Source of the DNA: Nitrospirota bacterium | GTDB taxonomy: Bacteria > Nitrospirota > Nitrospiria > Nitrospirales > Nitrospiraceae | Reading direction: 5' to 3' | NCBI GenBank assembly: GCA_028876065.1 | Contig: JAGWTI010000013.1 | Coordinates: 1-51,640 of the forward strand | Length of the DNA: 51,640 nt | In this document: positions 10,123 to 40,854 of the stretch, piece after piece | How the letters are laid out: each line of letters opens with the position of its first letter | Position numbering within the stretch: position 1 is the stretch's first letter | Notes under the pieces: model-generated | The model's input: the letters and a program-made list of their open reading frames with translations, nothing else | The model's database searches: none | What the model was told of the DNA's origin: nothing | Translations under genes and position numbers: made by a program

Positions 10123-10194
10123 TTACGCTGAAGCGGGACATTAGTATGCGTGGAATGAAATGGAATCGTTATAACTGATAGTGAGGTGATGATC

Positions 10195-10749: not shown

Positions 10750-10761
10750 GAGTTGTGACTT

Positions 10762-10796: not shown

Positions 10797-10852
10797 GCGT
10801 AACGGTCACGCCGGATTCTCTTGATTCCTCAGCGGATGGCTTGCTGACCGAT

Positions 10853-15671: not shown

Positions 15672-15693
15672 CAAGGATCTAGGGGAGGTGCTG

Positions 15694-16995: not shown

Positions 16996-17021
16996 CAACG
17001 GGCGGCACGCGCTATGTGCGC

Positions 17022-21825: not shown

Positions 21826-22676
21826 CGAGCCGGATGGCGCCATTGTCGCAGGAACACATCGACTCCAGGAACGCCTCGTTCTGGAGCGAGCTGTGCGGCT
21901 CGGGCCTGGCCCGTGCGCTGGGCATCACGGAACATTCGCCGCATAGTTTGCGCAAGTTCGATGAAGCCTATCTCGGCTTCTATCCGTATCTGCGGCGGTA
22001 CGTCGAGTCGGACGAGTTGGCCGGTGCGCGGGTGCTGGAGATTGGCCTGGGCTACGGCACCTTGGGCCAATTGCTGGCGTCGCGGGGTTGCCGGTATTAC
22101 GGGTTGGATATTGCCGAGACCCCCGTGACCGTCATGCGGTATCGCCTGTCGCTGCTCGGAGAGGGGAATGGCGAGGACCGGGTTCGCCAGGGCTCCGCCC
22201 TGGCGATTCCGTTCGACGACGGCCTGTTCGACCATGTCTACTCGATCGGATGCCTGCACCATACCGGCAACCTGACACGGGCGATCGCCGAAGTCCATCG
22301 GGTGCTGAAGCCGGGAGGCAGCGCCCTCATCATGCTGTACAACAAATACTCGTGGCGCCAGCTCGTGAGCGTCTCCCCCTGGGCCAGGCTGCGGACGGCC
22401 TGGTCGCGGGGCGGAGCCACGGACGACCGGCAATTTGGTGCGCAGATGCGGGCGCGGTACGACGGCAATGCGAAGGGCGAGGACCCTCCCCATACGGACT
22501 ATGTGTCCCGGACGGAGGTTCGGCGGCTGTTTTCCCGGTTCCGGCACGTTGGGATCGAGAGCCAGAATTGCGATCCGCTCGTGTGGCGCGGAAGAATCCT
22601 CGCTACGCGCGAACAGTTGCTCGGCAGTTTCGGCCGGCTGTTGGGCTTGGATCTCTACATCCGGGGGCGGAAGTGA
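21822..22676 (+). CDS. SAM-dependent methyltransferase, possible glycan chain-capping enzyme
   Basis: A 284-residue class I methyltransferase. The SAM-binding motif I is VLEIGLGYGTLGQLLA near residue 70, followed by YYGLDIA, DHVYSIGCLHHT and VLKPGGSALIMLYNKYSW. It overlaps the wzt stop by four bases. By analogy with cap-dependent exporters (WbdD methylates the chain end that Wzt-C binds), it may terminate the chain. It could equally methylate an internal sugar. No kinase domain is fused to it, unlike WbdD. Confidence 0.82.
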   Translation: MTSRMAPLSQEHIDSRNASFWSELCGSGLARALGITEHSPHSLRKFDEAYLGFYPYLRRYVESDELAGARVLEIGLGYGTLGQLLASRGCRYYGLDIAETPVTVMRYRLSLLGEGNGEDRVRQGSALAIPFDDGLFDHVYSIGCLHHTGNLTRAIAEVHRVLKPGGSALIMLYNKYSWRQLVSVSPWARLRTAWSRGGATDDRQFGAQMRARYDGNAKGEDPPHTDYVSRTEVRRLFSRFRHVGIESQNCDPLVWRGRILATREQLLGSFGRLLGLDLYIRGRK

Positions 22677-24487
22677 CGGCGTCGTCGCTACGATCGGCTG
22701 AAACCGGCGAGCGGACCGGCCAGATCCGTCCGCTTCCGTTGTCCCGCCGCCTATCGGTGCTCCTGCTCTGCGACGATTACCAGGGCCATGCCAACACGGT
22801 GTTGGACCACATCGCGGCCTTCACCGACTTCTCGGCCCACGACGTCCGGGTTTTCAATCCGATCGGCATGACCCGAAGCCGACACCTGGACCTGGATGAG
22901 TTCGACGCGGTGGTGATCCATTACTCGATCAAGATCGTCTCCGAAGACCATCTGGCTCCGGCCTTTCGGGAGCAGCTCCGACGTTACCAGGGGTTGAAGG
23001 TCCAGTTCATCCAGGACGAGTACCGTTCGGTGAACGATTTCACCGAATTGATGCGCGTTCTCGGCATCCGGGTGCTGTATACGCTCCTGGCCGAACCCGA
23101 GATCCCCAAGCTCTACGACGAGACGCGGCTGCCCGGGGTCGTGAAGCTGACGACGTGGGCCGGTTTCGTCCCCAAGGGCCTGACCGAATATGCCGCCCTG
23201 CCGCCGGCCCGCCGCCCGATCGACATCGGCTATCGCGGCCGGACACTGCCGTTCTGGCTCGGCATCCTCGGCCAGGAGAAAGCCTGGATCGCGCAAGGAG
23301 TGCGCGAACGAGCCGGACGGTACGGGTTGCGGTGCGACATCGGTTGGGCGGAAGAAGACCGGATCTACGGGCGGCGGTGGATCGAGTTTGTGGCGTCCTG
23401 CAAAGCCACGCTGGGCACCGAAAGCGGCTCGAGCATCACCGATTTCGACGGCTCCATCGAACAACGGACCAAAGCCTACCTTCTGGAGCATCCTCGGGCG
23501 GATTTCCAGGAGGTCCATCGCGCGCTGCTGCGGCCCCATGAAGACAACGTGAGGGTGACGGCCATCTCACCGCGAATATTCGAGGCGGCGGCCCTCCGAA
23601 CCGCCCTGATTTTGTTCCCCGGAACGTATTCGGGGTTGATCGACCCGTGGGTTCATTACATCCCGCTGGCCAAGGACTTCTCGAATCTGGACCGGGTGGT
23701 CGAGAAGTTGCGGGACGTCGAGTTTCTCGAGACGCTCACGGAGCGGGCGCACCGGGACCTGATCGCCTCGGGCCGCTTTTCGCAGCAGGCGTTCGCGCAG
23801 GAATTCGACGGCGTGCTGCTGCAATACGGGGCGCGCCGGGGCAAGCGACGGAAGCTGTCCTACCGGCTGGCCTGTCTTGAGCGGCCCTGCGCCATGGCAG
23901 CCTCAAATGTCCGGGAGTCGCTGCACCCCATCCTCCGAGTGCCGCAGGATGCCGTCAAGGCGGCGCTCGCCGTCGCGTTGCTGCTGATGTCCGAGGGCGG
24001 CCGTCAGATCGCAACCCGTTATCTGACCAGCCGCGAGCTGCGGCGCAGCGCCCCGTTCGGGGAACTCCTGCGGGATGTGCTCAAACTGGCCGTCGTGGGC
24101 CAGACCATGCACGGCATGCGGACGAGCAAGAAGCCGTTCCGGATGGCCGTGCGGCTGCAGGCCGACGAAGGCCGGATCGTGTTCGAGAGTCTGCGCGGGC
24201 AGGAGCCGGGTCCTGGGGCGGGGGACGGCGGGGATGACCCCAAAGCGGAGGCATTTTGGCGACGCTTCGGGTCGGTCGTCCAGGAGCGACGGCTTCAATT
24301 GATGGTATGGAACCACGCGGCCCTCGGCGGAAACGTTCGCTACAGGCTGGCGCCGTTCGCCGGACTCACGGTCTGCGTCGGCGACTACGACATGCACGCG
24401 TTCGCCGGATTGGTGGAGTTGGCGCGCCGTGCGCCGCAGCCGGCGTGGGCGTTCCTGTCGTCGATGCTGCATCGGCGGGTGGCGTAG
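22673..24487 (+). CDS. CgeB-like putative glycosyltransferase with extra C-terminal domain
   Basis: A 604-residue cytoplasmic protein. Residues about 25-390 match the second such protein of this cluster (start 28496). Shared pieces are RPxDxGxRG, W-x2-F-x3-CK-x3-G-x-ESG, SxRxFE, an HYI motif and DxSNLD. These resemble the C-terminal half of GT-B glycosyltransferases of the CgeB group, where ESG and SNLD line the donor site. About 210 residues after that (from near 390) have no counterpart in the paralogue and no family I recognise. The GTG start overlaps the methyltransferase stop. A glycosyltransferase role is inferred from fold-like motifs and location. Confidence 0.65.
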   Translation: MTASSLRSAETGERTGQIRPLPLSRRLSVLLLCDDYQGHANTVLDHIAAFTDFSAHDVRVFNPIGMTRSRHLDLDEFDAVVIHYSIKIVSEDHLAPAFREQLRRYQGLKVQFIQDEYRSVNDFTELMRVLGIRVLYTLLAEPEIPKLYDETRLPGVVKLTTWAGFVPKGLTEYAALPPARRPIDIGYRGRTLPFWLGILGQEKAWIAQGVRERAGRYGLRCDIGWAEEDRIYGRRWIEFVASCKATLGTESGSSITDFDGSIEQRTKAYLLEHPRADFQEVHRALLRPHEDNVRVTAISPRIFEAAALRTALILFPGTYSGLIDPWVHYIPLAKDFSNLDRVVEKLRDVEFLETLTERAHRDLIASGRFSQQAFAQEFDGVLLQYGARRGKRRKLSYRLACLERPCAMAASNVRESLHPILRVPQDAVKAALAVALLLMSEGGRQIATRYLTSRELRRSAPFGELLRDVLKLAVVGQTMHGMRTSKKPFRMAVRLQADEGRIVFESLRGQEPGPGAGDGGDDPKAEAFWRRFGSVVQERRLQLMVWNHAALGGNVRYRLAPFAGLTVCVGDYDMHAFAGLVELARRAPQPAWAFLSSMLHRRVA

Positions 24488-24501: not shown

Positions 24502-26427
24502 ATGTGCGGTATTGCCGGCATTCACAATCTCCGCGGTGAACGGTACCCGAGGTTGGGACAGGCTCTGGGGGTGATGAACGGCTTGCAACGGCACCGGGGC
24601 CCAGACGGGGAGGGGGTCTGGGAGCATCGGAGCGGCGCGGTCGGCTTCGGGCATCGACGTCTCAGCGTCATCGACCTCGCGTCCGGCCAGCAACCGATGC
24701 GCGACGCCGAAGGCAATTGGGTGACCTATAACGGGGAAATCTACAATTACCTGGAGCTGCGAGAAGAGCTGGGCCTCGAGTCGTTTGCGACCCGCTCCGA
24801 CACCGAGGTCATTTTGTGCGCCTACCGCAAATGGGGGCAGGACTGCGTCAGCCGCTTCCGGGGCATGTTCGCCTTTGCCCTGTGGGACGAGGCCAACCAA
24901 ACGCTGTTCTGCGCTCGGGACCGGTTCGGGATCAAACCCTTCTACTATACGACGGTCGGCGGCACGTTTTACTTCGCGTCGGAAATCAAGGCGCTGCTGC
25001 CGTTCCTGCCCGAGGTCCGGACCGATCTGGAGGGGTTCAAAGAGTATGTCACGTTCCAGTTTTGTCTGGCCGGCAGGACCTTGTATCGGGATGTCGCCGA
25101 ACTGACCCCGGGCCACGTGCTGGTCGCGAAAAACGGATCGGTCGAGACCCGCCGGTACTGGGAGGTCTGGTACGACCTCGACTTCGACCATACCGCGAAG
25201 TACTTCGAAGAACGGATCCAGGCGCTGCTGGACGAATCGGTGCGGCTGCACCTGCGCAGCGACGTGCCCGTCGGCGCCTATGTGAGCGGCGGCCTGGATT
25301 CGAGCATCGTCGCCTCGCTGGCCGCCCAGCGACAAGGGGAAGGGTTCCAGGGCTTCACGGGGAAATTTTCGCTGGGGCCGGCCTATGACGAAAGCCGCTA
25401 CGCGCAGGATTTGGCCAAGTGGCGGGGCTTCGAGTTACATGAAACGGAAATCACCGCCGCCGATTTCGTCGAGCATATCCGGCAGGTGATCTACCACTTG
25501 GACTATCCGGTCGCGGGGCCCGGCTCGTTCCCGCAGTACATGGTGGCAGGGTTGGCGGCCCGCCACCGCAAAGTGGTGCTGGGCGGCCAGGGCGGGGACG
25601 AGATTTTCGGCGGGTACGCCCGCTATCTCATCGCCTACTTCGAACAGTGCATCAAGGCGGCCATCGACGGCACGATGCACAACGGCAATTTCATCGTCAC
25701 CTACGAGTCGATCATCCCCAATTTAGAAGCCCTGCGCGAGTACAAGCCGCTGCTGCAGGAATTCTGGCGGAAGGGCCTGTTCGAGAAACTCGACAAGCGC
25801 TATTTCCGGTTGATCAATCGCGCCAGGGACTTGGGCGACGAGGTCAACTGGGAGGCGATCGAGCGCTACACCCCCTACGAGACGTTCCGCAGCATTTTCC
25901 GCGGACGGAACGTGCAAAAGGAGTCCTATTTCGACAGCATGACGCACTTCGATTTCAAAACCTTGCTGCCGGCCTTGCTGCACGTCGAAGACCGGATGAG
26001 CATGGCGCACGGGTTGGAATCCCGGGTGCCCTTCCTGGACCATCCGCTGATCGAATTGGCGGCGACGATTCCCTCCGACGTGAAGTTCAAGAACGGGCGC
26101 ATGAAGCACGTGCTCAAGAACGCCATGCGGGGCGTGCTGCCGGAATCCATCGCGAACCGGACCGACAAGATGGGCTTCCCCGTTCCACTCCAGGAGTGGA
26201 TCACGCAGCCGGGCATCGTGCAGGAATTCGCGCGGGACGTCTTGTCGTCGCAGCGGGCGCTCACCCGCGACCTGGTGGACAACCGGAAAGTGCTGGAGGG
26301 CTTGGCGCAGGAACCGCGGTTCGGCCGCAAGCTGTGGGGGCTGCTGTGCCTGGAACTGTGGCAGCAGACGTTCCACGACCGAGCCGCCTCGTTCACACAT
26401 CTGCTCGAAGCGGAGGGAACCACATGA
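24502..26427 (+). CDS. asnB: AsnB-like glutamine amidotransferase 1 (putative uronamide-forming)
   Basis: The 641-residue product has the class II glutaminase N-terminus (MCGIAG with nucleophile Cys2, RHRGPDGEG, NGEIYNY) and an ATP-pyrophosphatase synthetase domain with SGGLDSS at about residue 261. Later motifs are GGQGGDEIFGGY and EDRMSMAHGLESRVPFLDH. It uses glutamine ammonia to amidate a carboxylate after adenylation. Inside a polysaccharide cluster the likely substrate is a uronic acid, as proposed for WbpS (P. aeruginosa O6) and WbmE (Bordetella), rather than aspartate. It is one of three non-identical copies here. Its stop overlaps the SDR start. Confidence 0.85.
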   Translation: MCGIAGIHNLRGERYPRLGQALGVMNGLQRHRGPDGEGVWEHRSGAVGFGHRRLSVIDLASGQQPMRDAEGNWVTYNGEIYNYLELREELGLESFATRSDTEVILCAYRKWGQDCVSRFRGMFAFALWDEANQTLFCARDRFGIKPFYYTTVGGTFYFASEIKALLPFLPEVRTDLEGFKEYVTFQFCLAGRTLYRDVAELTPGHVLVAKNGSVETRRYWEVWYDLDFDHTAKYFEERIQALLDESVRLHLRSDVPVGAYVSGGLDSSIVASLAAQRQGEGFQGFTGKFSLGPAYDESRYAQDLAKWRGFELHETEITAADFVEHIRQVIYHLDYPVAGPGSFPQYMVAGLAARHRKVVLGGQGGDEIFGGYARYLIAYFEQCIKAAIDGTMHNGNFIVTYESIIPNLEALREYKPLLQEFWRKGLFEKLDKRYFRLINRARDLGDEVNWEAIERYTPYETFRSIFRGRNVQKESYFDSMTHFDFKTLLPALLHVEDRMSMAHGLESRVPFLDHPLIELAATIPSDVKFKNGRMKHVLKNAMRGVLPESIANRTDKMGFPVPLQEWITQPGIVQEFARDVLSSQRALTRDLVDNRKVLEGLAQEPRFGRKLWGLLCLELWQQTFHDRAASFTHLLEAEGTT

Positions 26428-27374
26428 GAGTGCTGATCACCGGGGGCGCGGGGTTCATCGGGTCCCACGTGGCCGAGCGTTTGCTGGGCCGGGGCGAGCA
26501 GGTGCTCGTCGTGGACAATTACGCGACCGGCCGGCGGGACAATCTCACGCCGCACCCGAACCTCACCCTCGTGGAGGGCACGATCGCGGACGGCACGCTG
26601 GTGCATCGGCTGTTCCGCGAGTTCGCGCCGGACCGGGTGGTCCATGCGGCGGCGTCCTACAAGGACCCGTTGAACTGGGCGGAGGACAGCGCGACCAACG
26701 TCGTCGGGACGGCGCACGTGGTCCAGGCCGCCCAGCAGGCCGGAGTGGCGCGGTTCATCTATTTTCAGACCGCCCTCTGTTACGGCCTCCATCCCCTGGA
26801 GCAGCCGATCACGCTCCAGCACCCGCTGCGTCCCGGCGCGAGCAGCTATGCGATCAGCAAGACCGCAGGCGAACATTATGTGGCGCTGAGCGGGCTCGAC
26901 TACCTGTCGTTTCGCCTGGCCAACGCCTACGGCCCGCGCAACATCAGCGGGCCCCTGCCGACCTTCTATCACCGGCTGACCAATGGCAAGCCCTGTTTCG
27001 TCATGGACACGAGACGGGACTTCATTTTCGTGGACGACCTGGTGACGGTGGTGATGCGGGCGCTGGATGGGCAGGGCGAGAAAGGCCTCTATCACATCGC
27101 CTCGGGGCGGGACTATGCGATCAAGGACCTGTTCGACGCCACCGTGCAGGCGCTGGGCATCCCGGCCCCGGCGGTGGAGGTGCGGCCGAGGAGCGAAGAC
27201 GATGCCTACACCATCCTGCTAGACCCCCGGAAGACCTGCGACGCCTTTTCGTGGACGGTCAGCACGCCACTCGACATCGGGGTCAAGAAAGCCATCGAGT
27301 GGTACAAACAGTTCGGCATCGCCCAAACCTACACGCATCTCAAGCCGGTTGAAGCCCAGGCCGCGCCGCGGTAG
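26424..27374 (+). CDS. Extended SDR nucleotide-sugar epimerase/dehydratase 1
   Basis: The 316-residue product begins with the NAD-binding ITGGAGFIGSHVAERLL. The Tyr-Lys pair lies in SYAISKTAGE, followed by RLANAYGPRN and DFIFVDDLV. It is of the GalE-like group that acts on UDP- or dTDP-sugars. The catalytic Ser/Thr region reads YFQTALCYG. Related SDRs (WbmF/G/H) accompany Wlb enzymes and an amidotransferase in the Bordetella O-antigen locus, where C4 epimerisation of diacetamido-uronate is proposed. Its ATG overlaps the amidotransferase stop, which suggests linked function. Confidence 0.83.
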   Translation: MRVLITGGAGFIGSHVAERLLGRGEQVLVVDNYATGRRDNLTPHPNLTLVEGTIADGTLVHRLFREFAPDRVVHAAASYKDPLNWAEDSATNVVGTAHVVQAAQQAGVARFIYFQTALCYGLHPLEQPITLQHPLRPGASSYAISKTAGEHYVALSGLDYLSFRLANAYGPRNISGPLPTFYHRLTNGKPCFVMDTRRDFIFVDDLVTVVMRALDGQGEKGLYHIASGRDYAIKDLFDATVQALGIPAPAVEVRPRSEDDAYTILLDPRKTCDAFSWTVSTPLDIGVKKAIEWYKQFGIAQTYTHLKPVEAQAAPR

Positions 27375-27401
27375 GCGGCGGACGAGGGGAGCGGGGCCGC
27401 G

Positions 27402-28463
27402 ATGAATGCGTTCGACGAGGCAAAGGTCCTGGTGGTCGGCGGCGCCGGCTTCGTGGGCGGCAATTTGCTCCGGGCGCTGCTGACGCGTGGCTGCAAACTG
27501 ATCCTGGCGGTGGACAACTTGCTCTCCGCCGAGCGCGCCAACGTGCCGGAAGACCGCCGCGTGCAGGTTATCGAAGGCTCCATCGCCGACGACACCGTCC
27601 TCGCGCAGCTCGCCGACGAGTTCGACTACGTGTTCCATCTGGCGACCTATCACGGCAACCAGAGCTCCATCGCCAACCCGTTGGAAGACCATGCCAACAA
27701 CCTGATCACCACGCTCAAGCTCTACGAGCGGATCAAGTCCTTCGCGAAGATCAAAAAAGTCGTCTATGCCGCGTCGGGCTGCACCTTGGCGCCGCACACC
27801 TTCGGGCACGCCGAAGCGACGCAGGAAGACGGGCCGGTCCCGTTCGATCTGGACAGCCCCTACCAGATTTCCAAAGTTGTCGGAGAATTCTATTCCGTCT
27901 ACTACTTCAACCGCCACCGGCTCCCGACCGTGCGGGCCCGGTTTCAAAATGTCTACGGCCCGGGGGAGATTCTGGGCGCAGGCCGGTGGCGTGGGACGCC
28001 CGCCACGGTCTGGCGGAACGTGACGCCGACCTTCGTGTACCGAGCGTTGAAACGGCTGCCGCTGCAGGTCGAGAACGACGGCAAGGCCAGCCGGGACTTC
28101 ATCTACGTGGAGGACATCGTGCGGGGGCTGCTCCTGTGCGCGACCGAGGGCCAAGCCGGAGATGTGTACAATCTGGCCAGCGGCGTCGAGACCTCCATCC
28201 TGGATTTGGCCGCCCTGGTAAACGAACTGGCCGGAAACCCCACGCCGATCGAACGCTTACCGAAGCGCGCCTGGGACCATTCGGGGCGCCGGTTCGGCAG
28301 CACGGACAAGGCCAAGCGCATCCTGGGGTTCGAAGCGGCGACGACCCTGACGGACGGCTTGCGGCGGACCATCGCATGGACGAAGGCGAATGAAGTCCTG
28401 ATCGACCGGTGCATCCGACAACACGCGGCTCAGATGGACCGCTTCGCGCATTCCCAGGTGTGA
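27402..28463 (+). CDS. Extended SDR nucleotide-sugar epimerase/dehydratase 2
   Basis: A 353-residue extended SDR. It begins VLVVGGAGFVGGNLLRALL and has the Tyr-Lys pair in PYQISKVVGEFYS, RARFQNVYGPGE and DFIYVEDIV. The substrate-loop HLATYHGNQSS and the YAASGCTLAP segment differ clearly from SDR 1, so they are not recent duplicates. It probably epimerises or modifies a second nucleotide sugar. Its last 55 bases overlap the extreme upstream extension of the following frame, whose better start is at 28496. Confidence 0.83.
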   Translation: MNAFDEAKVLVVGGAGFVGGNLLRALLTRGCKLILAVDNLLSAERANVPEDRRVQVIEGSIADDTVLAQLADEFDYVFHLATYHGNQSSIANPLEDHANNLITTLKLYERIKSFAKIKKVVYAASGCTLAPHTFGHAEATQEDGPVPFDLDSPYQISKVVGEFYSVYYFNRHRLPTVRARFQNVYGPGEILGAGRWRGTPATVWRNVTPTFVYRALKRLPLQVENDGKASRDFIYVEDIVRGLLLCATEGQAGDVYNLASGVETSILDLAALVNELAGNPTPIERLPKRAWDHSGRRFGSTDKAKRILGFEAATTLTDGLRRTIAWTKANEVLIDRCIRQHAAQMDRFAHSQV

Positions 28464-28495
28464 CGACGCCGCTGGGCCGGCGCGCTAAGGAACCG

Positions 28496-29689
28496 ATGAT
28501 CGAGCGGATTCCCACCTTGATCCTGTACGCGAAGAGCGTGCCCCACTGGCGGCGGGTGGTGGCGGATACGCTGGTGGGGGGGCTGCGCCTGACGCCCGAC
28601 ATGGTTCCGGCCCCGTTGCGCCGGAGCCGCCGCGTTCGCTTCCTGTTCGCGGAGGAGTACCGGACCCTGTCCTATCTGCTGGATTGGCAAGAGGCGTTTT
28701 GCGAGGCCTCGTCCCTCGACGAACGTCTGTGCAACATCAACAATCTCTTCGAGTATCAAGCGGCCCTGCGGACGCTGCAGCGGTATCCCCTGATCGTCAT
28801 TCTCCACTCGGCAGCCGGCGACAATATGGCGTTGTTACGCCGGGCGGCGAGTCGACTCAAGGACCGGCGCGGCAAGCTGGTCCTGTTCCTCGGCAACGAA
28901 TACAACGGCATGCCGGACAAGATCGGCTTTGCCCGGGACGTGGCGGCCGATTACATCGCCAGCCAATTGCCGCGCGAGGCGGCGGCCTGGCTCTACGCCG
29001 AGTGCGGACCGGCCAAGATCGTCGAGGCTCCGCCGGCGCTGAATCCGAAGCTGTACCAGCCACAGACAGGTCCACGCCCGGTGGACCTGGGCTTCCGAGG
29101 GGATCGTTATGAAGACCGGCTGTTGGGCGACAGGGACCGGGCCCGGATGCTCCATGCCGTCGCGGAACGGGCCGACCGGTGGGGGTTGGTCAAGGACATG
29201 GCATGCATCCGGTATCCGCGCGACGAGTGGAGCCGGTTTTTGGGAACCTGCAAAGGCATTGTCGGCGCCGAGTCCGGCACGGCCTATTTGGAACGGGATG
29301 ATCGAACGCAGGAGGCGGTGAAGCAGTACCTCGCGCGCCGTCCGGAAGCTCCCTTCGAGGAGGTGTTCGATCGCTTTTTCAAGCCGTACCCCCATCCCGT
29401 GTCGGGGAAGGCGGTGTCTTCCAGACATTTCGAGCCGATCGGGACCAAGACGTGCCAGATCTTGTTGGAGGGCCGGTACAACGGGATTTTGCAAGCGGAG
29501 GAGCATTACATCAGCGTGAAGCCAGACTTGTCCAATTTGGACGAAGCCATCCGCCGGTTCAAAGACGACGCGTATCGGCAGGCCATGGTCGAGCGGGCCT
29601 ATGAATACGTCCTGGCAGGCCATACCTATCGGCATCGCGTCGATCGCCTGTTGCGCACCGTGGTGGCCGACGGACTGCCGTCATGGTGA
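28496..29689 (+). CDS. CgeB-like putative glycosyltransferase, shorter paralogue
   Basis: The 397-residue product lacks the C-terminal extension of its paralogue (start 22673) but shares its C-terminal GT-B-like half: RPVDLGFRGDR, CKGIVGAESG, SSRHFEPIG, GRYNGILQAEEHYI and DLSNLDEAI. AAGGA lies 5 bases before the ATG. The frame is open upstream to 28409 inside the SDR gene, but those residues are not family-like. It lies between SDR 2 and amidotransferase 2. The function as a glycosyltransferase is inferred. Confidence 0.65.
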   Translation: MIERIPTLILYAKSVPHWRRVVADTLVGGLRLTPDMVPAPLRRSRRVRFLFAEEYRTLSYLLDWQEAFCEASSLDERLCNINNLFEYQAALRTLQRYPLIVILHSAAGDNMALLRRAASRLKDRRGKLVLFLGNEYNGMPDKIGFARDVAADYIASQLPREAAAWLYAECGPAKIVEAPPALNPKLYQPQTGPRPVDLGFRGDRYEDRLLGDRDRARMLHAVAERADRWGLVKDMACIRYPRDEWSRFLGTCKGIVGAESGTAYLERDDRTQEAVKQYLARRPEAPFEEVFDRFFKPYPHPVSGKAVSSRHFEPIGTKTCQILLEGRYNGILQAEEHYISVKPDLSNLDEAIRRFKDDAYRQAMVERAYEYVLAGHTYRHRVDRLLRTVVADGLPSW

Positions 29690-29713
29690 CCAGGGGATAA
29701 CGAGGACATCGCG

Positions 29714-31597
29714 ATGTGCGGGATCGCAGGACACGTGACAGCGGATCACCGGCCCGTCGATGCGCGCCTGGTTGCGGCCATGGGGGACAGCCTCAGGCAT
29801 CGGGGACCGGACGACCAGGGCCTGTACATCAACGGCTCTGTGGGGCTGGCGCACCGACGATTGAGCATCCTGGATCTCAGTCCTGCCGGCCGCCAACCGA
29901 TGTTCAATGATGCGGGCACGATTGGGATTGCGTTCAATGGGGAGATCTACAACTACGAGGAGTTGCGCGGCAGACTCCGGTCTCCTCGCGCCTTCCGGTC
30001 CCGGACCGATACGGAGGTCCTGCTGGCCCTCTATGAGGATTATGGGGTCGAATGTCTCCCGCTTCTGCGCGGGATGTTCGCCGTCGCCATCTGGGATGAG
30101 CCGCGCCGGCGACTGGTCCTGGCGCGGGACCGGCTGGGCAAGAAGCCGCTCTTTTACTCGGCGGATCACCGTGGGCTGCGCTTTGCCTCCGAGCTGAAAG
30201 CCTTGCTGCTCGACGGGCCGGCTCCGTCCGTCGATCCGCTGGCCGTCCACCATTATCTGACCTTCCAGTATGTCCCGACGCCCCGCACGATCTTTCACGG
30301 CCTGCGGAAACTCCCGCCGGGGCACGTGTTGGTGTATGAGCAGGGCAAGGTTTCCGAGAGCGCCTACTGGTCGCCGAGGTACGACGAGAAGCAGGCCGAA
30401 CGATCCGAGGCCGATTGCAAAGAAGAATTTCTCGCGCTACTGACCGAGTCGGTGAAACTGCGGTTGGCCAGCGACGTGCCCCTCGGAGCCTTTCTCAGCG
30501 GCGGGGCGGATTCCAGCACGGTCGTGGCCATCATGAGCCGGCTTACGGGACAGCCGATCAAAACCTTTTCGATCGGCTTCAAGGAAACAGGGTTCAACGA
30601 ACTGCCCTATGCCCGCGAGGTGGCCGCGCGCTTCGGCACGGAGCACCACGAGTTCATCGTCGAGCCGTCGGCCTTGGATATTCTGCCCAAGCTCGTGCGT
30701 GTCTACGACGAGCCCTTCGCGGACGCGTCGGCGATCCCCACCTACTATGTCTCGCAACTGAGCCGGCAATTCGTGACGGTGGCGCTCAATGGAGACGGCG
30801 GCGACGAGCTGTTGGCCGGCTATCCTCGATATCATCTCACGCCATTCGATAGGATGAGCGCGCGCTACCTTCCGGCGTCGATCCGGGAGCGCCTGGCCGG
30901 TCCGCTCGCCCATCTCCCCTTCGGCGCCTCCGGTCTGGGAAGAGTCCGGAACCGTCTCGAACGGGCGCTGGCCCCGTTCAGCCGGACCTATCTCACCCGC
31001 ATCGCCTACTTCTTGCCGGAGGAAAAGAGGCAGCTCTACACGTCGGACTTCCGGGATTCCGTCAGGGGACAGGATTCCTTCGCTCTGCTGGACGGATGGT
31101 TCGAGCAAGCGCAGGCTTCGGATCTGCTCGATCAGGTGGTTTCGGTGGATACTCGGTCCTACCTGCCGGACGATCTGCTCGTCAAAGTGGACCGGGCCAC
31201 CATGGCGCATGGGCTGGAGGCCCGCTCGCCGTTTCTGGACCATCGCCTGGTGGAGTTCTGCGCGTCCCTTCCTGCGCATATGAAGGTGCGGGCCGGCCAG
31301 GGCAAGTATCTGCTGAAAGCGGCCATGCGCGGGACCTTGCCCGATCGCCTGCTGGATCGCGAGAAGATGGGGTTCGCCGTGCCGCTGGACCGATGGTTTC
31401 GCGAGGAATGCCGCGAGTTCGTGCACGATACGCTCCTGTCCGCGCGCGCGCTGCAACGGGGCTATTTCGAGCCGGTGCAGCTGCGTGCGATGGTCGAGCA
31501 GCGGCAGGGAGGCCAAGGCGGATATGGCGCGTGCGCCTATGCCCTGCTGATGCTCGAGCTGTGGCACCGGGAATATGTCGATCGGAGGGCGGCATGA
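29714..31597 (+). CDS. asnB: AsnB-like glutamine amidotransferase 2
   Basis: The 627-residue product starts MCGIAGHV with nucleophile Cys2, and RHRGPDDQG and NGEIYNYEEL follow. The synthetase domain has SGGADSS at about residue 261, KTFSIGF, LNGDGGDELLAGY and VDRATMAHGLEARSPFLDH. The KTFSIGF and DGGDELLAGY blocks are closest to the B. subtilis AsnB/AsnO type. A genuine asparagine synthetase remains possible. Position, and a four-base stop-start overlap with a GT4 gene, favour a glycan role. Confidence 0.86.
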   Translation: MCGIAGHVTADHRPVDARLVAAMGDSLRHRGPDDQGLYINGSVGLAHRRLSILDLSPAGRQPMFNDAGTIGIAFNGEIYNYEELRGRLRSPRAFRSRTDTEVLLALYEDYGVECLPLLRGMFAVAIWDEPRRRLVLARDRLGKKPLFYSADHRGLRFASELKALLLDGPAPSVDPLAVHHYLTFQYVPTPRTIFHGLRKLPPGHVLVYEQGKVSESAYWSPRYDEKQAERSEADCKEEFLALLTESVKLRLASDVPLGAFLSGGADSSTVVAIMSRLTGQPIKTFSIGFKETGFNELPYAREVAARFGTEHHEFIVEPSALDILPKLVRVYDEPFADASAIPTYYVSQLSRQFVTVALNGDGGDELLAGYPRYHLTPFDRMSARYLPASIRERLAGPLAHLPFGASGLGRVRNRLERALAPFSRTYLTRIAYFLPEEKRQLYTSDFRDSVRGQDSFALLDGWFEQAQASDLLDQVVSVDTRSYLPDDLLVKVDRATMAHGLEARSPFLDHRLVEFCASLPAHMKVRAGQGKYLLKAAMRGTLPDRLLDREKMGFAVPLDRWFREECREFVHDTLLSARALQRGYFEPVQLRAMVEQRQGGQGGYGACAYALLMLELWHREYVDRRAA

Positions 31598-32850
31598 GCG
31601 CTCAAGCCGCCGGTCGTACGGTCGCCGCGCCCGTTCCTCAGGAGGTCCTCCACCAGCGGCAGGGCCTCGAGACTGGCGTGCGGGAGTCGGCGGACGCGGC
31701 GCTGAGAATCTGCTTCATTTCCCCCCTCGGGTACGGCCTGTACCGGCCGGAGAGCGGCCTGCCGTTCGGCGGAGCCGAGGTCCAACTGTTCCTGCTGGCG
31801 AAGGAGATGGCCAAGGGCGAGCGGCGACAGGTGCAGGTGCTGACGACGGTGGAACAGAAGCCAGGCACGGAAATGCAGGGTCGTGTGACGGTGGTGCGGC
31901 GCCGGGGGCTGCATCGGTTGGAGGAGCCCTCCGGCCTGTTTCGGCGCGGATGGAACTATGTCCAGGCGTTCCGCGACATGTACCGACAACTGAGGGCGAT
32001 CGGCGCGGATGTGTATCTCCATTCCGGTTCCGGCGTGGAGGTCGGGGCCTACGCCCTGATCTGCCGCCTCCTGCGCACGCGGTTCGTCTACGTGGTGGCC
32101 TCGTCGGCCGATCTGGACGAGCCCTATGGCAAGGTCCAAGGTCCCTTGCGGTGGCTCTATCCTGTCGGTCTCCGCCTGGCCGACGCCATCGTCTGTCGGA
32201 CCGAGGAACAACGGGTGCGGTGGCGCGAGCGATACGGGCGGGGCTCCTGGCTGATCCGCACCGGCCATCCGATCCCCGAGGTTCTGCCTGATCAACCAGG
32301 AGCCGGCTCGATCCTCTGGGTCGGTCGAGCCCATCCGCTCAAGCAGCCGGACCGGTTCCTGGACCTGGCCGAACGGCTGCCCCACGAGCGTTTCATCATG
32401 GTCGTGATGCCGGATCCGGCCCATCCCGACTTGTCCCTTGCGTTGCGTCGACGGGCCGCCAAGTTGCCGCAGGTGACGTTCCATGAAGGGGTTTCCTGGG
32501 AGGCAGTCGATGGGGTGTTCGCACAGGCCAAGCTTTTCGTCAATACCTCCACCTACGAAGGGTTTCCCAATACCTTCGTCCAAGCGGCGATGCATCGCGT
32601 GCCGATTCTCTCGTGGCTGGTCAATCCGGACGCCGTGTTGACGGCCCATCGCATCGGCGCCTGCGCGGAGGGTTCTTTCGAGCGGCTGGTCGAAGAGGTC
32701 CAGCGTTTTGCCGGTCACGACGAGCTGCGCCGTGAGACCGGGGAGCGCGCCCGCCGGTATGCCGAAGCGCATCATGATGTTGCGCGTGCGGCCGAGACCT
32801 TCGACGCCCTCTTGCGGCAAGTGGTCGGGCAGAGGGAGGCGGTATCGTGA
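31594..32850 (+). CDS. GT4-family glycosyltransferase A
   Basis: A 418-residue GT-B glycosyltransferase. After a 35-residue non-conserved lead the Rossmann start reads ICFISPLGYGLY, followed by PFGGAEVQLFLLAKEMA. The donor-site half has ILWVGRAHPLKQPD and the EX7E-type NTSTYEGFPNTFVQAAMH, where the two Glu/Gln positions contact the nucleotide sugar. It is cytoplasmic and would add one sugar to the lipid-linked chain. Donor and linkage cannot be read from sequence. Confidence 0.84.
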   Translation: MSAQAAGRTVAAPVPQEVLHQRQGLETGVRESADAALRICFISPLGYGLYRPESGLPFGGAEVQLFLLAKEMAKGERRQVQVLTTVEQKPGTEMQGRVTVVRRRGLHRLEEPSGLFRRGWNYVQAFRDMYRQLRAIGADVYLHSGSGVEVGAYALICRLLRTRFVYVVASSADLDEPYGKVQGPLRWLYPVGLRLADAIVCRTEEQRVRWRERYGRGSWLIRTGHPIPEVLPDQPGAGSILWVGRAHPLKQPDRFLDLAERLPHERFIMVVMPDPAHPDLSLALRRRAAKLPQVTFHEGVSWEAVDGVFAQAKLFVNTSTYEGFPNTFVQAAMHRVPILSWLVNPDAVLTAHRIGACAEGSFERLVEEVQRFAGHDELRRETGERARRYAEAHHDVARAAETFDALLRQVVGQREAVS

Positions 32851-34043
32851 AGCCCTTGCGCCTGGCCTACATCGGCCCCGCCCATTCCGTGACCACCCGC
32901 CGTTGGGCCGAGTGGTTTGTGCGGCGCGGCCACGAGGTGACGATTCTGACGGTCGAGCCGACGGACGCAAGCCTTCCCGTCGGGTTTCGGCAGATCGATC
33001 TCAGTTCGGTTTCCGGCCCGCGCAAACTGGGCCGGCTCTTTTCCGTCGCCAAGCTGGCCCTCCAGCTGCGCCGGCTGCGGCCGGATCTCATCCATATCCA
33101 CTATGCGAGGGGATTGGCCTGGGGGCAACTGCTTGCGGGAGTTGCGCCGTCCGTCGTCACCCTCTGGGGCAGCGATGTGCTGGAGGAACAGGGGGCGTTC
33201 AAGGAATGGTACAGCCGGCCTCTGACGAAGGCGCTGTTGCGGAAGGCGTGTCTCGTGACCGTGCATTCGGCCTTCATGGAAGTCCGCGTCCAACCGTTGT
33301 TGGATCGGAGCTCCGTGACCGCCCGCATCGGCTGGGGCGTGGATGTCGCCCGGTTCCGGCCTGGGTTGGATGTGACGCCCCTCCGGGATCGCTGGCAGAT
33401 TCCGGAAGACCGCCGGGTCCTCTTCAGCCCGAGGAGCGCGCAGCCTTTCTACAATCTGGACCGGATCATCCAGGCCTTGCCGCTAGTGCGCAGGCGGGTG
33501 CCCCGGGCGCTGTTGGTTCTGGCCGAGTCCCTGCCTGACCGGGCCTATGTCGAGCGGCTCCGCCGGCTGGTCGATGACCTGGGGGTGCGCGAACAGGTCC
33601 GTTTCGTGGGGGCGATCCCGTACCGGGACATGCCGCTCTGGCTGAATTTGGCCGAGGTTTCCGTCATGGTCCCTCAGTCGGACGGGATGCCCAATTCTCT
33701 CTGGGAGGCGATGGCCTGCGGTGCCATTCCCCTGTTGAACCGGCTGCCGCAATATGCCGAGCTGATTCGGGACGGAGAGCACGGGTATTTCACAGACCCG
33801 GAACCGGAACCGCTGGCCGAGGCGTTGGCGCGGGCCTTGGCCGACCCGGCCGAGCGAGAGCGGATGGCCAGGCGGAATCGGGCGGTCGCGCTGGAGAGCG
33901 GCAATCAGGACCGCGAGATGGCGAGAATGGAAGGGTGGTATGCGACGCTGCTCGCTGGGCGAGGCGCCGGGTGGGCGCCCACCGGCAACGTGGGGGAGAG
34001 GGACGCAGTGCCATGTGCGGAATTGCCGGAATCGTCCACATAG
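32847..34043 (+). CDS. GT4-family glycosyltransferase B
   Basis: The product has 398 residues with a GTG start overlapping the previous stop. The N-terminal half reads RLAYIGPAHSVTTRRWAEWF and LIHIHYARGLAWGQLL, with a glycine-rich acceptor region. The C-terminal half has FSPRSAQPFYNLDRIIQ and the donor motif QSDGMPNSLWEAMACGAIP. The last 30 residues are non-conserved and overlap amidotransferase 3 by 31 bases, the largest overlap in the operon. It may be a C-terminal extension of little importance. Confidence 0.84.
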   Translation: MKPLRLAYIGPAHSVTTRRWAEWFVRRGHEVTILTVEPTDASLPVGFRQIDLSSVSGPRKLGRLFSVAKLALQLRRLRPDLIHIHYARGLAWGQLLAGVAPSVVTLWGSDVLEEQGAFKEWYSRPLTKALLRKACLVTVHSAFMEVRVQPLLDRSSVTARIGWGVDVARFRPGLDVTPLRDRWQIPEDRRVLFSPRSAQPFYNLDRIIQALPLVRRRVPRALLVLAESLPDRAYVERLRRLVDDLGVREQVRFVGAIPYRDMPLWLNLAEVSVMVPQSDGMPNSLWEAMACGAIPLLNRLPQYAELIRDGEHGYFTDPEPEPLAEALARALADPAERERMARRNRAVALESGNQDREMARMEGWYATLLAGRGAGWAPTGNVGERDAVPCAELPESST

Positions 34044-35959
34044 ACAGGCGGCCGCTTGACGGAGGGCTGCTGGAAGCCATGACCCGTTCCCTGGCCCACC
34101 GGGGGCCGGACGGAGAAGGCTACGCGTTGCTGGCCCGGGACGGGACGGGCAAACCGATCACGGTCGCGGGCCGGCTGTCCGATTCCATCCGGTCCGTCCC
34201 GCGCGACTATGCCGTCGGGTTCGGCCACAGGCGTCTGGCCATCCTGGACCGGTCTCCGCTGGGCCACCAGCCCATGTCCTGCGACCGGGAGGAAGTCTGG
34301 CTCACCTACAACGGCGAGCTCTACAACTATCTGGAGCTCAAGCAGACGTTGCGGCAGCGGGGATGGTCCTTCCGGTCCACGAGCGACGCCGAAGTGCTCC
34401 TCTATGCCTATAAGGAATGGGGCGAGGATTGCCTCCACCGGTTCAACGGCATGTTCGCCTTTGCCTTGTGGGATGCGCGGGCGCAGAAGCTGTTCTGCGC
34501 CCGCGACCGGTTCGGGATCAAGCCCTTCTACTATCACTGGGACGGAGACCGGTTCTGCTTTGCGTCCGAGATCAAGGCCTTGCTGCAGAATCCCGCCCAT
34601 CGGGCCAGGCCCCATGACCGGATGGTCTATGACTACCTGACCCTCTCGCGGCAGGACCACAGCACGGAGACCTTCTTTCAAGGCATCCATCAACTGGCGC
34701 CGGGCGAACGGCTGACGCTGCGGCCGGGTCGCGGAGACGGACAGGGAGCGGCGCTCGACCGTGACCGTTGGTGGCGGTTCGCGGTGGGGCGGCAGGAGGT
34801 GTCGCTCGCCGATGCGGCGGCCCGCACGCGAGAGCTGCTGGAGGACAGTGTCAGGCTGGAGCTGCGGGCGGATGTGCCGGTCGGGAGTTGCCTGAGCGGA
34901 GGGTTGGACTCGTCGAGCATCGTCTGTCTGATGAGCCGCTTGCTCGGGCCGGGAGGGGCGCCGCGGACGTTTTCCGCCTGTCATGAAGACGGGCGTTTCG
35001 ACGAGCGGCCCTATATCCGTCCGGTGCTGGAACGGACCGGGGCAGCCAACGAACGAGTGTTTCCCGACGCCACGCGGTTGTTCGCGGAGCTGCCGACGGT
35101 GCTCTGGCATCAGGATGAACCCTTCGCGGGGACGAGCATTTTGGCCCAATGGGCGGTCATGCAGGCGGCCGGTGGGGCCGGCATGAAAGTGTTGCTGGAT
35201 GGGCAGGGAGCGGACGAACTGCTGTGCGGGTATCCCGGCTTCATGGGGGCCCGCCTGGCCGATTTCATCAGCACCGGCCGATGGGGGGCGGGCATCCGCG
35301 CCTGGCGAGACTGGCGCAGGATGCATGGCGGCATCCGGCCGGCTCTCCTTGCCGGCTTGGGACGGGGGCTGCTGCCCGGCCCCATGGCTACCGGCCTCCG
35401 CCGTCTCATCCAAGGGGAGGACCGATGGCTGGCCCCGGCCTTTGTCCGATCCTGGCGGGACGGCGCTGGGGAGGGGCGGGCCGTTGCCGGACAAACGGCA
35501 CTGGACAGGCATATGGAACGGGCGGTCACCCAAGACTTACCCGCCTTGCTCCACTACGAAGATCGGAACGCCATGGCCTTTTCCATCGAAGCGCGGGTGC
35601 CCTTTCTGGACCATCGCCTGGTCGAATGGCTGGCCGCGCTTCCGCCGGAGCACAAGCTCGAGGGAGGCACGACCAAAGTCGTGTTGCGCGAGGCCATGGC
35701 CGGCCTGTTGCCGGAGGAGGTCCGTCTGCGCCGCGACAAAATGGGGTTCGTCACGCCCCAAGACCGGTGGTTGCGTGTCGAGCTGAGGCAGGAGATCGAA
35801 GCGATCGTGGCATCGGACCGGTTCCGCTCCCGTCCTTACTGGCAGGCCTCGGCTGTGCAGGATGCCTATCGGCGTTATTGCGACGGACAGGTCTCCATCG
35901 GCTCCACGGTCTGGCGATGGATCAACCTGGAACTGTGGCTCAGGAGATTTTGTGATTGA
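34013..35959 (+). CDS. asnB: AsnB-like glutamine amidotransferase 3
   Basis: The longest of the three copies (648 residues). It begins MCGIAGIVHID with nucleophile Cys2 and keeps AHRGPDGEG and NGELYNYLEL. It carries an extra 30-residue insertion before GFGHRRLAILD, which moves SGGLDSSS to about residue 294. LDGQGADELLCGY replaces the usual NGDGGDE. EDRNAMAFSIEARVPFLDH closes the active site. A purine-rich GGGGGAGAGG precedes the chosen ATG, which lies inside the preceding gene. Its divergence from copies 1 and 2 suggests a different acceptor sugar. Confidence 0.86.
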   Translation: MCGIAGIVHIDRRPLDGGLLEAMTRSLAHRGPDGEGYALLARDGTGKPITVAGRLSDSIRSVPRDYAVGFGHRRLAILDRSPLGHQPMSCDREEVWLTYNGELYNYLELKQTLRQRGWSFRSTSDAEVLLYAYKEWGEDCLHRFNGMFAFALWDARAQKLFCARDRFGIKPFYYHWDGDRFCFASEIKALLQNPAHRARPHDRMVYDYLTLSRQDHSTETFFQGIHQLAPGERLTLRPGRGDGQGAALDRDRWWRFAVGRQEVSLADAAARTRELLEDSVRLELRADVPVGSCLSGGLDSSSIVCLMSRLLGPGGAPRTFSACHEDGRFDERPYIRPVLERTGAANERVFPDATRLFAELPTVLWHQDEPFAGTSILAQWAVMQAAGGAGMKVLLDGQGADELLCGYPGFMGARLADFISTGRWGAGIRAWRDWRRMHGGIRPALLAGLGRGLLPGPMATGLRRLIQGEDRWLAPAFVRSWRDGAGEGRAVAGQTALDRHMERAVTQDLPALLHYEDRNAMAFSIEARVPFLDHRLVEWLAALPPEHKLEGGTTKVVLREAMAGLLPEEVRLRRDKMGFVTPQDRWLRVELRQEIEAIVASDRFRSRPYWQASAVQDAYRRYCDGQVSIGSTVWRWINLELWLRRFCD

Positions 35960-37142
35960 ACCGGACGGCAAGACGGGAGTCGGCCAGGCCGGCTCCGCTC
36001 CTGATGTCGCGCTGATCCTCTTGAACAACAGCGGGATCGGAGGGACAGAGCGGCGCTTCGCCCAGGTCTACCGAGGACTCAGAGCCCGTGGCGTCTCCGT
36101 GTCGCTGGTGATCAACGAATCGTTGCAGCAACGGCTTGTCCGGTCCGGGTTGTTGGAGCCGGATGAGGCGGCGTTGGTCGTGAAGGAGCCGGTGGGCAAG
36201 GTGGCCCATACGTGGCGCAAGGCGGACTATGGCCTGGCCTGTGTAAGCGTCGGCTGGTGGCTGTTGAAAACCAAGCCCAAGGTCATGCATCTGGTGCTGG
36301 GCGGGGCCTATGTGACGCTGCCGGCTCAGGCGTTGGGCTGGGCGCCGCCGGCCGTCTTGTCTCTCGTCTGCCCGAGCCTGCGGGACCTGGTCGGGTCTGC
36401 CTCTGGCCTGTGGCTGTACCGGTCGGCGCTCAAGCGCGCGGCTTTCGTGGACGCCCTGACTGAGTCGGTGGGAGTTATGGCTGAGGCGGAAGGAGCAGCT
36501 CCGGATCGGATTCGGGTCTCGTCCGGCAGTTGCGTGGACACGGATCGGTTTCGGCCTGCTCGGGCCAAGAAGCCCTGGGTCGTCTTTTCCGGCCGCCTGA
36601 TCGACGAGAAGAATCCGTTGCTGTTCGTGGAGGCCTGTGCGCGCGTCCATCGGCTGGTGCCGGAGGCCCGCTTCTTCCTGTTGGGGAACGGACCCCTACG
36701 CCGCCCGGTCGAGGAATCGATCAGACGGCACAAGCTGGACGCCTGCACCGACGTGGGCTGGCGGGACGAGGTGCAGGAGATCCTCGGACCGGCGCTGCTG
36801 TTCGCCTCCCTCCAGCGCATGGATAATTACCCGTCCCAGGCTTTGCTGGAAGCCATGGCCTGCGGGGCCTCGGTGGTTGCGACGGACGTGGGGCTGACGG
36901 GAAAGCTGGTCGACGATACGGTCGGGCTGCGGGTTCCGGCCGATCCGGTTTCCGTCGCCGAGGCCCTGGTCCGGCTCCTGGCCGATCCGGAGCGAACGCA
37001 GATCCTGGGCGAGCGGGGACGGGAACGGGTGCTGCGCGAGCACAGTCTGGATGCCTATTTGACGCATCTCGAAGGGCTTTACGCAGCGGCGGGGGAATCG
37101 GGCGCGCAGCCGGCCTATGCCTCGGCTGAGGCGCGGCGATAA
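35952..37142 (+). CDS. GT4-family glycosyltransferase C
   Basis: A 396-residue GT-B enzyme. Its N-terminal acceptor domain contains LILLNNSGIGGTERRFAQVYRGL, the donor domain has VVFSGRLIDEKNPLLFVEA, and the nucleotide-sugar site reads MDNYPSQALLEAMACGASVVA. The GTG start at 35952 has AGGAG 5 bases upstream and overlaps the amidotransferase stop by eight bases. The longer open frame from 35862 lies inside the upstream gene. Sugar specificity is unknown. Confidence 0.84.
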   Translation: MIEPDGKTGVGQAGSAPDVALILLNNSGIGGTERRFAQVYRGLRARGVSVSLVINESLQQRLVRSGLLEPDEAALVVKEPVGKVAHTWRKADYGLACVSVGWWLLKTKPKVMHLVLGGAYVTLPAQALGWAPPAVLSLVCPSLRDLVGSASGLWLYRSALKRAAFVDALTESVGVMAEAEGAAPDRIRVSSGSCVDTDRFRPARAKKPWVVFSGRLIDEKNPLLFVEACARVHRLVPEARFFLLGNGPLRRPVEESIRRHKLDACTDVGWRDEVQEILGPALLFASLQRMDNYPSQALLEAMACGASVVATDVGLTGKLVDDTVGLRVPADPVSVAEALVRLLADPERTQILGERGRERVLREHSLDAYLTHLEGLYAAAGESGAQPAYASAEARR

Positions 37143-37151
37143 GGACCGACG

Positions 37152-38219
37152 ATGTTTCTGCTGATCTTGACCTTCCTCCTGGCCTTTTTCCTCTCCCTCT
37201 ACGGGGTGCCCGTGGCCCGCGCGGCTGCGCTCAAGTACGGCATTGTGGACAGCCCGGACGGGCGGCTCAAGCATCAACGCGAGCCCGTGCCCTATCTGGG
37301 CGGACTGGCGATCTACCTGGCCTTCCTGATCAGCCTGGCCTTCACCTTCGAGTTTCGCCACGACGTGCTGGGCATCGTCCTGGCCGGGACCCTGGTCCTC
37401 CTGCTGGGCCTGATCGACGATTTCGGCGTGCTCTCGCCGAGCATCAAGCTGATGGGGCAGTTCCTGGCCGTCTTCGTGCTGATCAAAAGCGGCATCCGGG
37501 TGAATATTGCGGTCCTGCCGGATTGGCTGGACCTGGCGCTGACGGTGGTCTGGATGCTGGGCATCATCAATGCGTTCAACCTTCTGGATATCATGGACGG
37601 GCTGGCGGCGGGGGTCGGGTTCGTCTGTGCGGCCTGTCTGCTCACCGTGGCGTTGCTGAACGGAGACCAGACTCTGGCCTTCATGCTGACGGCTCTGGCC
37701 GGGAGTCTGTTGGGCTTCCTGCGCTACAACTTCCGCCCCGCCCTCATCTATATGGGCGATGCCGGCGCCATGTTCATCGGGCTGATGCTGGGCGCGGTGT
37801 CGATGATCGGTCAGTACCAGGGGAGCCATCCGCTGGCCTTGCTGAGCCCGGCGTTCATCCTGGGGGTCCCGCTCCTGGACACGATCTTCGTCATCTACAT
37901 GCGGCTGTCGCGCGGCGTGCCGGTCTTCATGGGCAGTCCCGATCATTTGGCCTTGCGCTTGCGGCGCCACGGATTTCCGGTGCCGGTCGTGGTGAGCCTC
38001 ATGTACGGAGCCTCGACTGTGCTGGGCGGAATCGGGCTGGCGCTTCTGTTCGTCGACATGCAACTGGCGGCGGCGTTGGTCGGCCTGACGGGATTGGCCT
38101 TCATCGTGACGACGCTCGTGATGAAGCGCGTGGACGTGACCGTGCCCGGTCCGATGCAGGCCGCCGGGCCAGTCGTGGCGGTTCCCGCGGACGTCCGGGA
38201 AGAGCGGGTGCCGTCATGA
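37152..38219 (+). CDS. wecA: Undecaprenyl-phosphate N-acetylhexosamine-1-phosphate transferase (WecA/TagO-like)
   Basis: A polytopic enzyme of the MraY/WecA superfamily, 355 residues with about ten membrane spans. It attaches the first sugar phosphate to undecaprenyl phosphate and so starts the glycan. The diagnostic cytoplasmic motifs are all present: LGLIDDFGVLSP (Asp pair), NAFNLLDIMDGLAAG, GDAGAMFIG and the basic/His motif SPDHLALRL. It is the only initiating transferase in the window, so it is the likely start point for the ABC-exported chain. Confidence 0.9.
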   Translation: MFLLILTFLLAFFLSLYGVPVARAAALKYGIVDSPDGRLKHQREPVPYLGGLAIYLAFLISLAFTFEFRHDVLGIVLAGTLVLLLGLIDDFGVLSPSIKLMGQFLAVFVLIKSGIRVNIAVLPDWLDLALTVVWMLGIINAFNLLDIMDGLAAGVGFVCAACLLTVALLNGDQTLAFMLTALAGSLLGFLRYNFRPALIYMGDAGAMFIGLMLGAVSMIGQYQGSHPLALLSPAFILGVPLLDTIFVIYMRLSRGVPVFMGSPDHLALRLRRHGFPVPVVVSLMYGASTVLGGIGLALLFVDMQLAAALVGLTGLAFIVTTLVMKRVDVTVPGPMQAAGPVVAVPADVREERVPS

Positions 38220-40779: not shown

Positions 40780-40854
40780 GTGATTGAATCATTGGCTCAT
40801 CGGGGCATTGGTTCAATGAGGCAATGGCACGATGATGCAATGGGGCAATTCCAG
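40780..40854 (+). repeat. Degenerate short-period spacer before the wbpE-like gene
   Basis: This stretch is built from variants of CATTGG, TTCAATG and GCAATGG repeated at irregular 9-15 base steps. It is open in the aminotransferase frame, so an annotation could extend the protein into it (ATG 40840 also in frame). The translation is not family-like. It looks like decayed simple repeat. Confidence 0.45.

Follow-up and report, generated by a model that had tools for sequence, protein, structure and literature searches.

The DNA analyzed here is contig JAGWTI010000013.1 of the Nitrospirota bacterium assembly GCA_028876065.1 (family Nitrospiraceae), and by the window we mean this whole stretch of 51,640 nucleotides. 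Between ~15.7 and 42 kb it carries a polysaccharide locus which is best explained, with a probability of about 70–75%, as an O-antigen-like locus with three glutamine-dependent amidotransferases of the AsnB type in separate modules. The first of them, AsnB1, lies beside two short-chain dehydrogenases/reductases (SDRs) of types known from the Bordetella wbm locus, and we consider it rather probable that it acts on a diacetamido-uronate. That all three enzymes make uronamides has, in our estimate, about even odds.

Three divergent amidotransferases in one locus

It was originally predicted that three AsnB-like amidotransferases are interleaved in one polysaccharide locus, and three full-length proteins are indeed found among transferases and SDRs: AsnB1 (24502..26427, 641 aa), which is WbmE-like by its gene context, AsnB2 (29714..31597, 627 aa) and AsnB3 (34013..35959, 648 aa), whose glutaminase domain has a lengthened loop and whose ATG start lies 78 bases within the listed open reading frame (ORF). 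All three match the GATase_7/GATase_6 and Asn_synthase domains in a profile search. Their motifs read as claimed: Cys2 is present in each, the SGGxDSS loop is SGGLDSS in AsnB1 and AsnB3 and SGGADSS in AsnB2, and the second ATP-site motifs are GGQGGDEIF, NGDGGDELL and DGQGADELL in AsnB1, AsnB2 and AsnB3, respectively. GGQGGDEIF is the commonest second motif (19 rows) in a set of 92 AsnB-type proteins, where DGQGADE-x-L is frequent as well, and from such a distribution the differences look like clade signatures rather than oddities. The alignment shows that the glutaminase residues Cys1, Arg49, NGE(I/L)YN and Asp98 are kept in all three proteins, together with SGGxDSS and the Lys449 position (we assume here the E. 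coli numbering and residue roles). With the glutaminase site conserved in each enzyme, the likely amine donor is ammonia from glutamine and not another amine.

The pairwise identity of the three proteins is 35–36%. In a tree of the 92 proteins, built by a quick method and taking in every fourth of 80 AsnB1 relatives, they fall into three well-supported separate clades of 22, 24 and 39 rows, and therefore they are not recent duplicates; probably they belong to three old clades, each brought in with its own module. The phylogenetic check that had been suggested was thus carried out in part: as references the tree took in the E. coli O65 O-antigen AsnB and E. coli K-12 AsnB, the latter with a very long branch and an unsure placement. 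The nearest named relative of AsnB1, 73% identical, is that of Nitrospira sp. BO4. Three of the six AsnB gene starts of the 3.41-Mb genome lie within 9.6 kb (p ~0.0005 under uniform placement), a value that says little because polysaccharide genes cluster anyway.

Comparison with the two other good genomes of the genus (G001 and G003) shows a locus with conserved ends. The nucleotide-sugar 6-dehydrogenase at its start (15688..16995) is 94–95% identical in both, at its end the WecA-like protein, the flavin adenine dinucleotide (FAD) protein, a GT4 glycosyltransferase and the DegT protein are 78–90% identical, and the interior differs. G001 has AsnB2 (79%) and AsnB3 (58%), and the fetched DNA of its homologous locus holds no AsnB1 and no WbmH- or WbmF-type SDR; G003 has AsnB3 (80%) and another AsnB, 35% identical to AsnB2. 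AsnB1 and its SDRs are absent from the homologous loci of both genomes. Conserved ends around an exchangeable interior are the behaviour of variable O-antigen-like loci and would point to such a locus here, one with an ABC exporter.

The original prediction also held that no locus with this arrangement had been described, and this does not stand. The 75-kb polysaccharide cluster psc1 of Rubrivivax gelatinosus likewise contains three asparagine synthase (wbpS) genes, given in the gene list of PMC3684757 as RGS1_10407, 10423 and 10435; the same source reports transposon insertions in the first and third of them and 37% identity between RGS1_10407 and WbpS. Unlike the window, psc1 has PEP-CTERM genes inside it and its three AsnB genes stand wider apart in that list. 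Multi-AsnB loci recur elsewhere too. We collected 80 named AsnB1 loci, the best 80 of 191 AsnB1 relatives, and in the flanking DNA examined 35 of them have at least two AsnB-type ORFs and 10 at least three; among the 40 loci of at least 20 kb the numbers are 24 and 9. In the host's family PF00733 is matched in 59/59 genomes; among the matches listed, which go down to ~285 bits, at least seven genomes (G000, G003, G004, G012, G015, G021 and G049) have three AsnB inside a 25-kb stretch, the third copy of G000 being taken from another search. Loci with several AsnB are fairly common, and the locus of the window illustrates them well without being unprecedented. G003 holds another three-AsnB set within 13.6 kb (G003:C16:34853-48457), one member of which is an ortholog of the AsnB copy on C73 in the genome of the window. 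Literature searches gave nothing closer on polysaccharide clusters with more than one asparagine synthetase gene (by title and abstract start), no such Nitrospira locus with asparagine synthase and polysaccharide among the matches listed (by title), and nothing on wbmF together with asparagine synthase.

AsnB1 and its WbmH- and WbmF-type neighbours

SDRa (26424..27374) is 54.7% identical to WbmH and 42.5% to WbmG, its best PDB matches being 2q1w (370 bits) and then 2pzk (274), and SDRb (27402..28463) is 63.0% identical to WbmF, with 2pzj (490 bits) followed by 6pmh (231). In Table 2 of PMC2279256, 2Q1W is WbmH, 2PZJ, 2Q1S, 2Q1T and 2Q1U are WbmF, and 2PZK, 2PZL and 2PZM are WbmG, all from Bordetella. 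SDRa has the TYK triad of the WbmH type, with QTALCYG and YAISK, and SDRb keeps the Cys133 and His90 positions of the WbmF type, with GC and HGNQ. The comparison with Bordetella that was made originally is thus borne out by the genes next to AsnB1.

According to the proposal outlined in PMC2279256, UDP-D-ManNAc3NAcA is converted in Bordetella to UDP-L-GalNAc3NAcA, WbmG and WbmH oxidizing and reducing C4 and WbmF epimerizing C3 and C5. Like the wbm locus (WbmE, WbmF, WbmG, WbmH), the window has an AsnB-type gene beside WbmH- and WbmF-type SDRs, a gene set for a diacetamido-uronate precursor, and an exporter of the ABC type (for that of Bordetella, see its description in PMC3849452). Unlike it, the window has no WbmG-type enzyme, has two further AsnB copies and has a Ser in SDRb where WbmF carries Ala131, which stands at the missing position of the SDR triad. 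No WbmG-type SDR was found in the genome: searched with a WbmG-type sequence, it gives SDRa as the best match (44%), and the next is at 34%. WbmE amidates the Bordetella polymer, and uronamide formation, which was predicted as the likely chemistry, finds its strongest support for AsnB1.

The association of AsnB1 with the two SDRs is not a peculiarity of the window. With SDRa called above 200 bits and SDRb above 300 bits, 61 of the 80 AsnB1 loci have both, three have SDRa alone and one SDRb alone, and the exact order AsnB1–SDRa–SDRb is seen in 42. Just upstream of AsnB1 a glycosyltransferase of the type found in the window at 22673 or 28496 ends in 29 of the 68 loci with enough upstream DNA. 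The rows of the SDRa tree span ~20 phyla, as counted from the row labels, and within the host's family 4 of 59 genomes carry a WbmF-type gene, each time with an AsnB domain ~1 kb away. Counting the 62 relatives and the protein of the window, all 63 SDRb keep HGNQ and at least 61 keep the Cys; the missing-triad position is Ala in 58 of the 62 relatives and Ser, as in the window, in 4. We considered that this Ser/Ala choice tracks the number of WbmH/G-type SDRs and rejected it (one SDRa, Ala 45 and Ser 4; two, Ala 11; three, Ala 1; none, Ala 1).

A single SDRa is present in 51 of the 64 SDRa-bearing loci, always closer to WbmH than to WbmG, with the limit that WbmG could lie beyond the DNA examined in other AsnB1 loci. 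In the remaining 13 there are two or three SDRa-type proteins, exactly one of them closer to WbmG in each case, and these 13 WbmG-like SDRs group with WbmG across a branch of 100/100 support in a tree whose bootstrap is not settled. The two-SDR form is common, and in it the WbmH-type enzyme may serve both redox steps. A more doubtful suggestion is that AsnB1–WbmH–WbmF is a widespread self-contained two-SDR cassette for an amidated L-GalNAc3NAcA-type sugar, with WbmG as a minority add-on, and that with the two further amidases here the repeat unit would carry three distinct uronamides.

Weighing the uronamide reading

Judged by family models, AsnB2 resembles the WbpS family. Its nearest NCBIfam model is TIGR03108 (XrtA/WbpS family, cut-off 817), which it matches with 630 bits, and AsnB1 (452 bits) and AsnB3 (386 bits) also stay below the cut-off. 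The account in PMC7468200 places WbpS and WbqG in this family and reports that the uronamide is lost upon deletion of PGN_1234 in P. gingivalis. AsnB2 has the best model that is reported there for WbpS and WbqG, which belong with the uronamide amidotransferases known from P. aeruginosa O6, E. coli O121, H. pullorum and P. gingivalis (PGN_1234); it differs in being under the cut-off, and its likeness to WbpS and WbqG is judged via the shared model. The E. coli O65 O-antigen AsnB (strain M8) is below the cut-off as well, with 525 bits, lower than AsnB2. Its gene is flanked by glycosyltransferases, and in the tree it falls on the AsnB2 side; from AsnB2, to which it is 38% identical, it differs in being a single copy. 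Galacturonamide is a component of the E. coli O65 polysaccharide. A DNA similarity search for E. coli O121 WbqG returned O65-type clusters alone (2 of 5426 genomes).

Several observations weigh against our reading. The equation of AsnB1 with WbmE rests on the neighbouring genes, and the Ser at the Ala131 position may mean that the division of labour between the SDRs differs from that in Bordetella. In 15 of the 80 AsnB1 loci neither SDR was found (six of these have <2.7 kb of DNA after AsnB1), and on a P. frederiksbergensis plasmid an AsnB1-type gene (48% identical) stands without SDRs beside a Wbp-type set. Since such genes without SDRs exist, AsnB1 may act on diacetamido-uronates generally or on a broader uronate group. 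In the flanking DNA examined the dehydrogenase was seen in 9 of the 80 loci, and in the window the Gfo/Idh-type protein of the precursor set is under every model cut-off. TIGR03108 is also the best model for an AsnB copy of the host genome that lies outside a polysaccharide context (C72) and is perhaps a true asparagine synthetase; the model therefore does not single out sugar enzymes and is weakened as a marker of sugar amidation.

Another explanation, which survives best but which we hold to be unlikely, is that AsnB1 alone amidates a sugar carboxylate and that AsnB2 and/or AsnB3 amidate other glycan carboxyls (acyl or amino-acid substituents) or the finished polymer. It would fit the window, where AsnB2 and AsnB3 each lack a neighbouring epimerase pair of their own, and the 39-row clade of AsnB3, which also includes a lasso-cyclase-like copy (C124). 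However, AsnB2 is closest to the family of tested WbpS-type enzymes, to the extent that PMC7468200 describes them, and AsnB3 keeps its GT4 neighbours in the homologous loci of G001 and G003. The C124 copy itself (G000:C124:7936-9912) has a dead glutaminase site, with Ser for Cys and DGRLDN for NGEIYN, it reaches 520.6 bits against a lasso-peptide cyclase cut-off of 525, and it has relatives in G001 and G003; a lasso-peptide cluster may thus be conserved in the genus.

The earlier idea that at least one of the three enzymes uses an amine other than ammonia, yielding substituted amides, has become quite improbable. AsnB-fold relatives with such chemistry exist, for example the hydroxyamidotransferase 7ylz, which is the best PDB match of AsnB2, and lasso cyclases are related; yet AsnB1, AsnB2 and AsnB3 keep the Cys, Arg, NGE and Asp, whereas Cys and NGE are lost from the lasso-cyclase-like copy on C124.

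A further question is which enzyme supplies asparagine. All three proteins pass the asparagine synthase model TIGR01536 (cut-off 267), with 534, 490 and 448 bits for AsnB1, AsnB2 and AsnB3, but this model does not discriminate because the O65 O-antigen AsnB passes as well (461 bits). With E. coli AsnB they share both catalytic domains and most active-site motifs, at 27–34% identity, and its equivalog model NF006949 (cut-off 499) is reached by none of them (300.5, 303.5 and 222.6 bits; K-12 AsnB, 1050 bits). In the host genome AsnRS is above its cut-off, GatB is present and AsnA was not found, and from AsnRS without AsnA it follows that one AsnB-type enzyme probably supplies asparagine. The best candidate is C72, which is flanked by an FGE-sulfatase-type (sulfatase-modifying-factor) gene and an SNF2 helicase gene and has close relatives in G001 and G003, the copies of the window being accessory within the genus. 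The lack of the E. coli T-x4-T-x3-R motif was dropped as proof against asparagine synthesis; the genome's other AsnB copies, C72 included, are without it too. That one or more of AsnB1, AsnB2 and AsnB3 are ordinary asparagine synthetases, as TIGR01536 and the need for some AsnB-type supplier might suggest, is the least probable alternative in view of NF006949, of C72 as a better candidate by context and relatives, and of the homologous loci, where AsnB1 is missing from both congeneric genomes and AsnB2 from one.

Gene content and proposed pathway

The locus lies entirely on the plus strand, with many genes overlapping, and precursor-pathway genes stand at both of its ends, four at 15.7–19.8 kb and an aminotransferase at 40.8 kb. 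The four are the 6-dehydrogenase in a WbpA-like position (15688..16995; TIGR03026 421 bits, cut-off 190; nearest solved structure Cap5O), the Gfo/Idh-type 3-dehydrogenase in a WbpB/WlbA-like position (17016..18053; best NCBIfam model NF040723, UDP-GlcNAc 3-dehydrogenase, 163 bits against a cut-off of 450; no PDB match at 1e-30), a WbpD/WlbB-like hexapeptide-repeat N-acetyltransferase (18056..18655; best PDB match 3mqg, a lipopolysaccharide biosynthesis acetyltransferase and presumably WlbB, 241 bits) and a UDP-sugar 2-epimerase in a WbpI-like position (18652..19758; TIGR00236 wecB 291 bits, cut-off 210). The WbpE-like DegT aminotransferase (40780..41973) matches WbpE structures with 300–303 bits, behind 7b0d, the best chain with 360 bits, and 3frk.

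After the 2-epimerase come an ABC-2 polysaccharide exporter permease (19755..20543; PF01061), a Wzt-like exporter ATPase with a C-terminal domain (20551..21825; NF010065/NF050108 under cut-off), an S-adenosylmethionine-dependent methyltransferase (21822..22676; several weak NCBIfam methyltransferase matches) and a GT-B-fold glycosyltransferase with an extra C-terminal part (22673..24487), which we take to be CgeB-like; it has no Pfam match, and its model (pLDDT 79) matches GT-B transferases in Foldseek from E 6e-7. A second CgeB-like glycosyltransferase (28496..29689; PF13524) follows SDRb, and GT4 glycosyltransferases are encoded at 31594..32850 (weak GT4-family matches), 32847..34043 (PF00534), 35952..37142 (PF13692/PF00534) and 39574..40779 (TIGR03088 181 bits, under cut-off). 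Between the last two lie a WecA-like undecaprenyl-phosphate sugar-1-phosphate transferase (37152..38219; TIGR02380 99 bits, under cut-off) and a PRK07208-like FAD-dependent protein of the amine-oxidase fold (38213..39577; PF01593; NF005548 under cut-off). Upstream of the locus (9386-12949) there is a type IV pilin-like gene and then, after a gap, one for a TPR-repeat protein of the Wzy_C O-antigen-ligase type, which may be the ligase for the glycan of this locus or for another one. Downstream (44928-45446) there is a short ORF with an Nmad2 domain (PF18753, nucleotide-modification associated).

Taking together the genes, motifs, clades, synteny and gene associations, the following route can be proposed. 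The 6-dehydrogenase, 3-dehydrogenase, aminotransferase, acetyltransferase and 2-epimerase would produce UDP-D-ManNAc3NAcA, the WbmH-type SDR would oxidize its C4 and the WbmF-type SDR would then epimerize C3 and C5, after which the WbmH-type enzyme, there being no WbmG, probably re-reduces C4 to give UDP-L-GalNAc3NAcA. AsnB1 would activate the C6 carboxylate with ATP and transfer glutamine-derived ammonia to it, forming the uronamide, and both the WbpS-like AsnB2 and AsnB3 would most likely amidate further uronic acids within the same repeat unit in this way.

Based on this pathway a concrete and checkable sugar, L-GalNAc3NAcA or its amide, is predicted in the surface glycan of the host, and if the repeat unit with three uronamides is true, a polymer of acidic sugars would lose much of its charge. 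The two-SDR WbmH–WbmF set beside AsnB would also provide simpler systems for a point left open by the 2007 Bordetella work, namely which SDR oxidizes and which reduces and whether WbmG is needed. For annotators the locus is a warning that many genes named asparagine synthase probably encode sugar amidotransferases.

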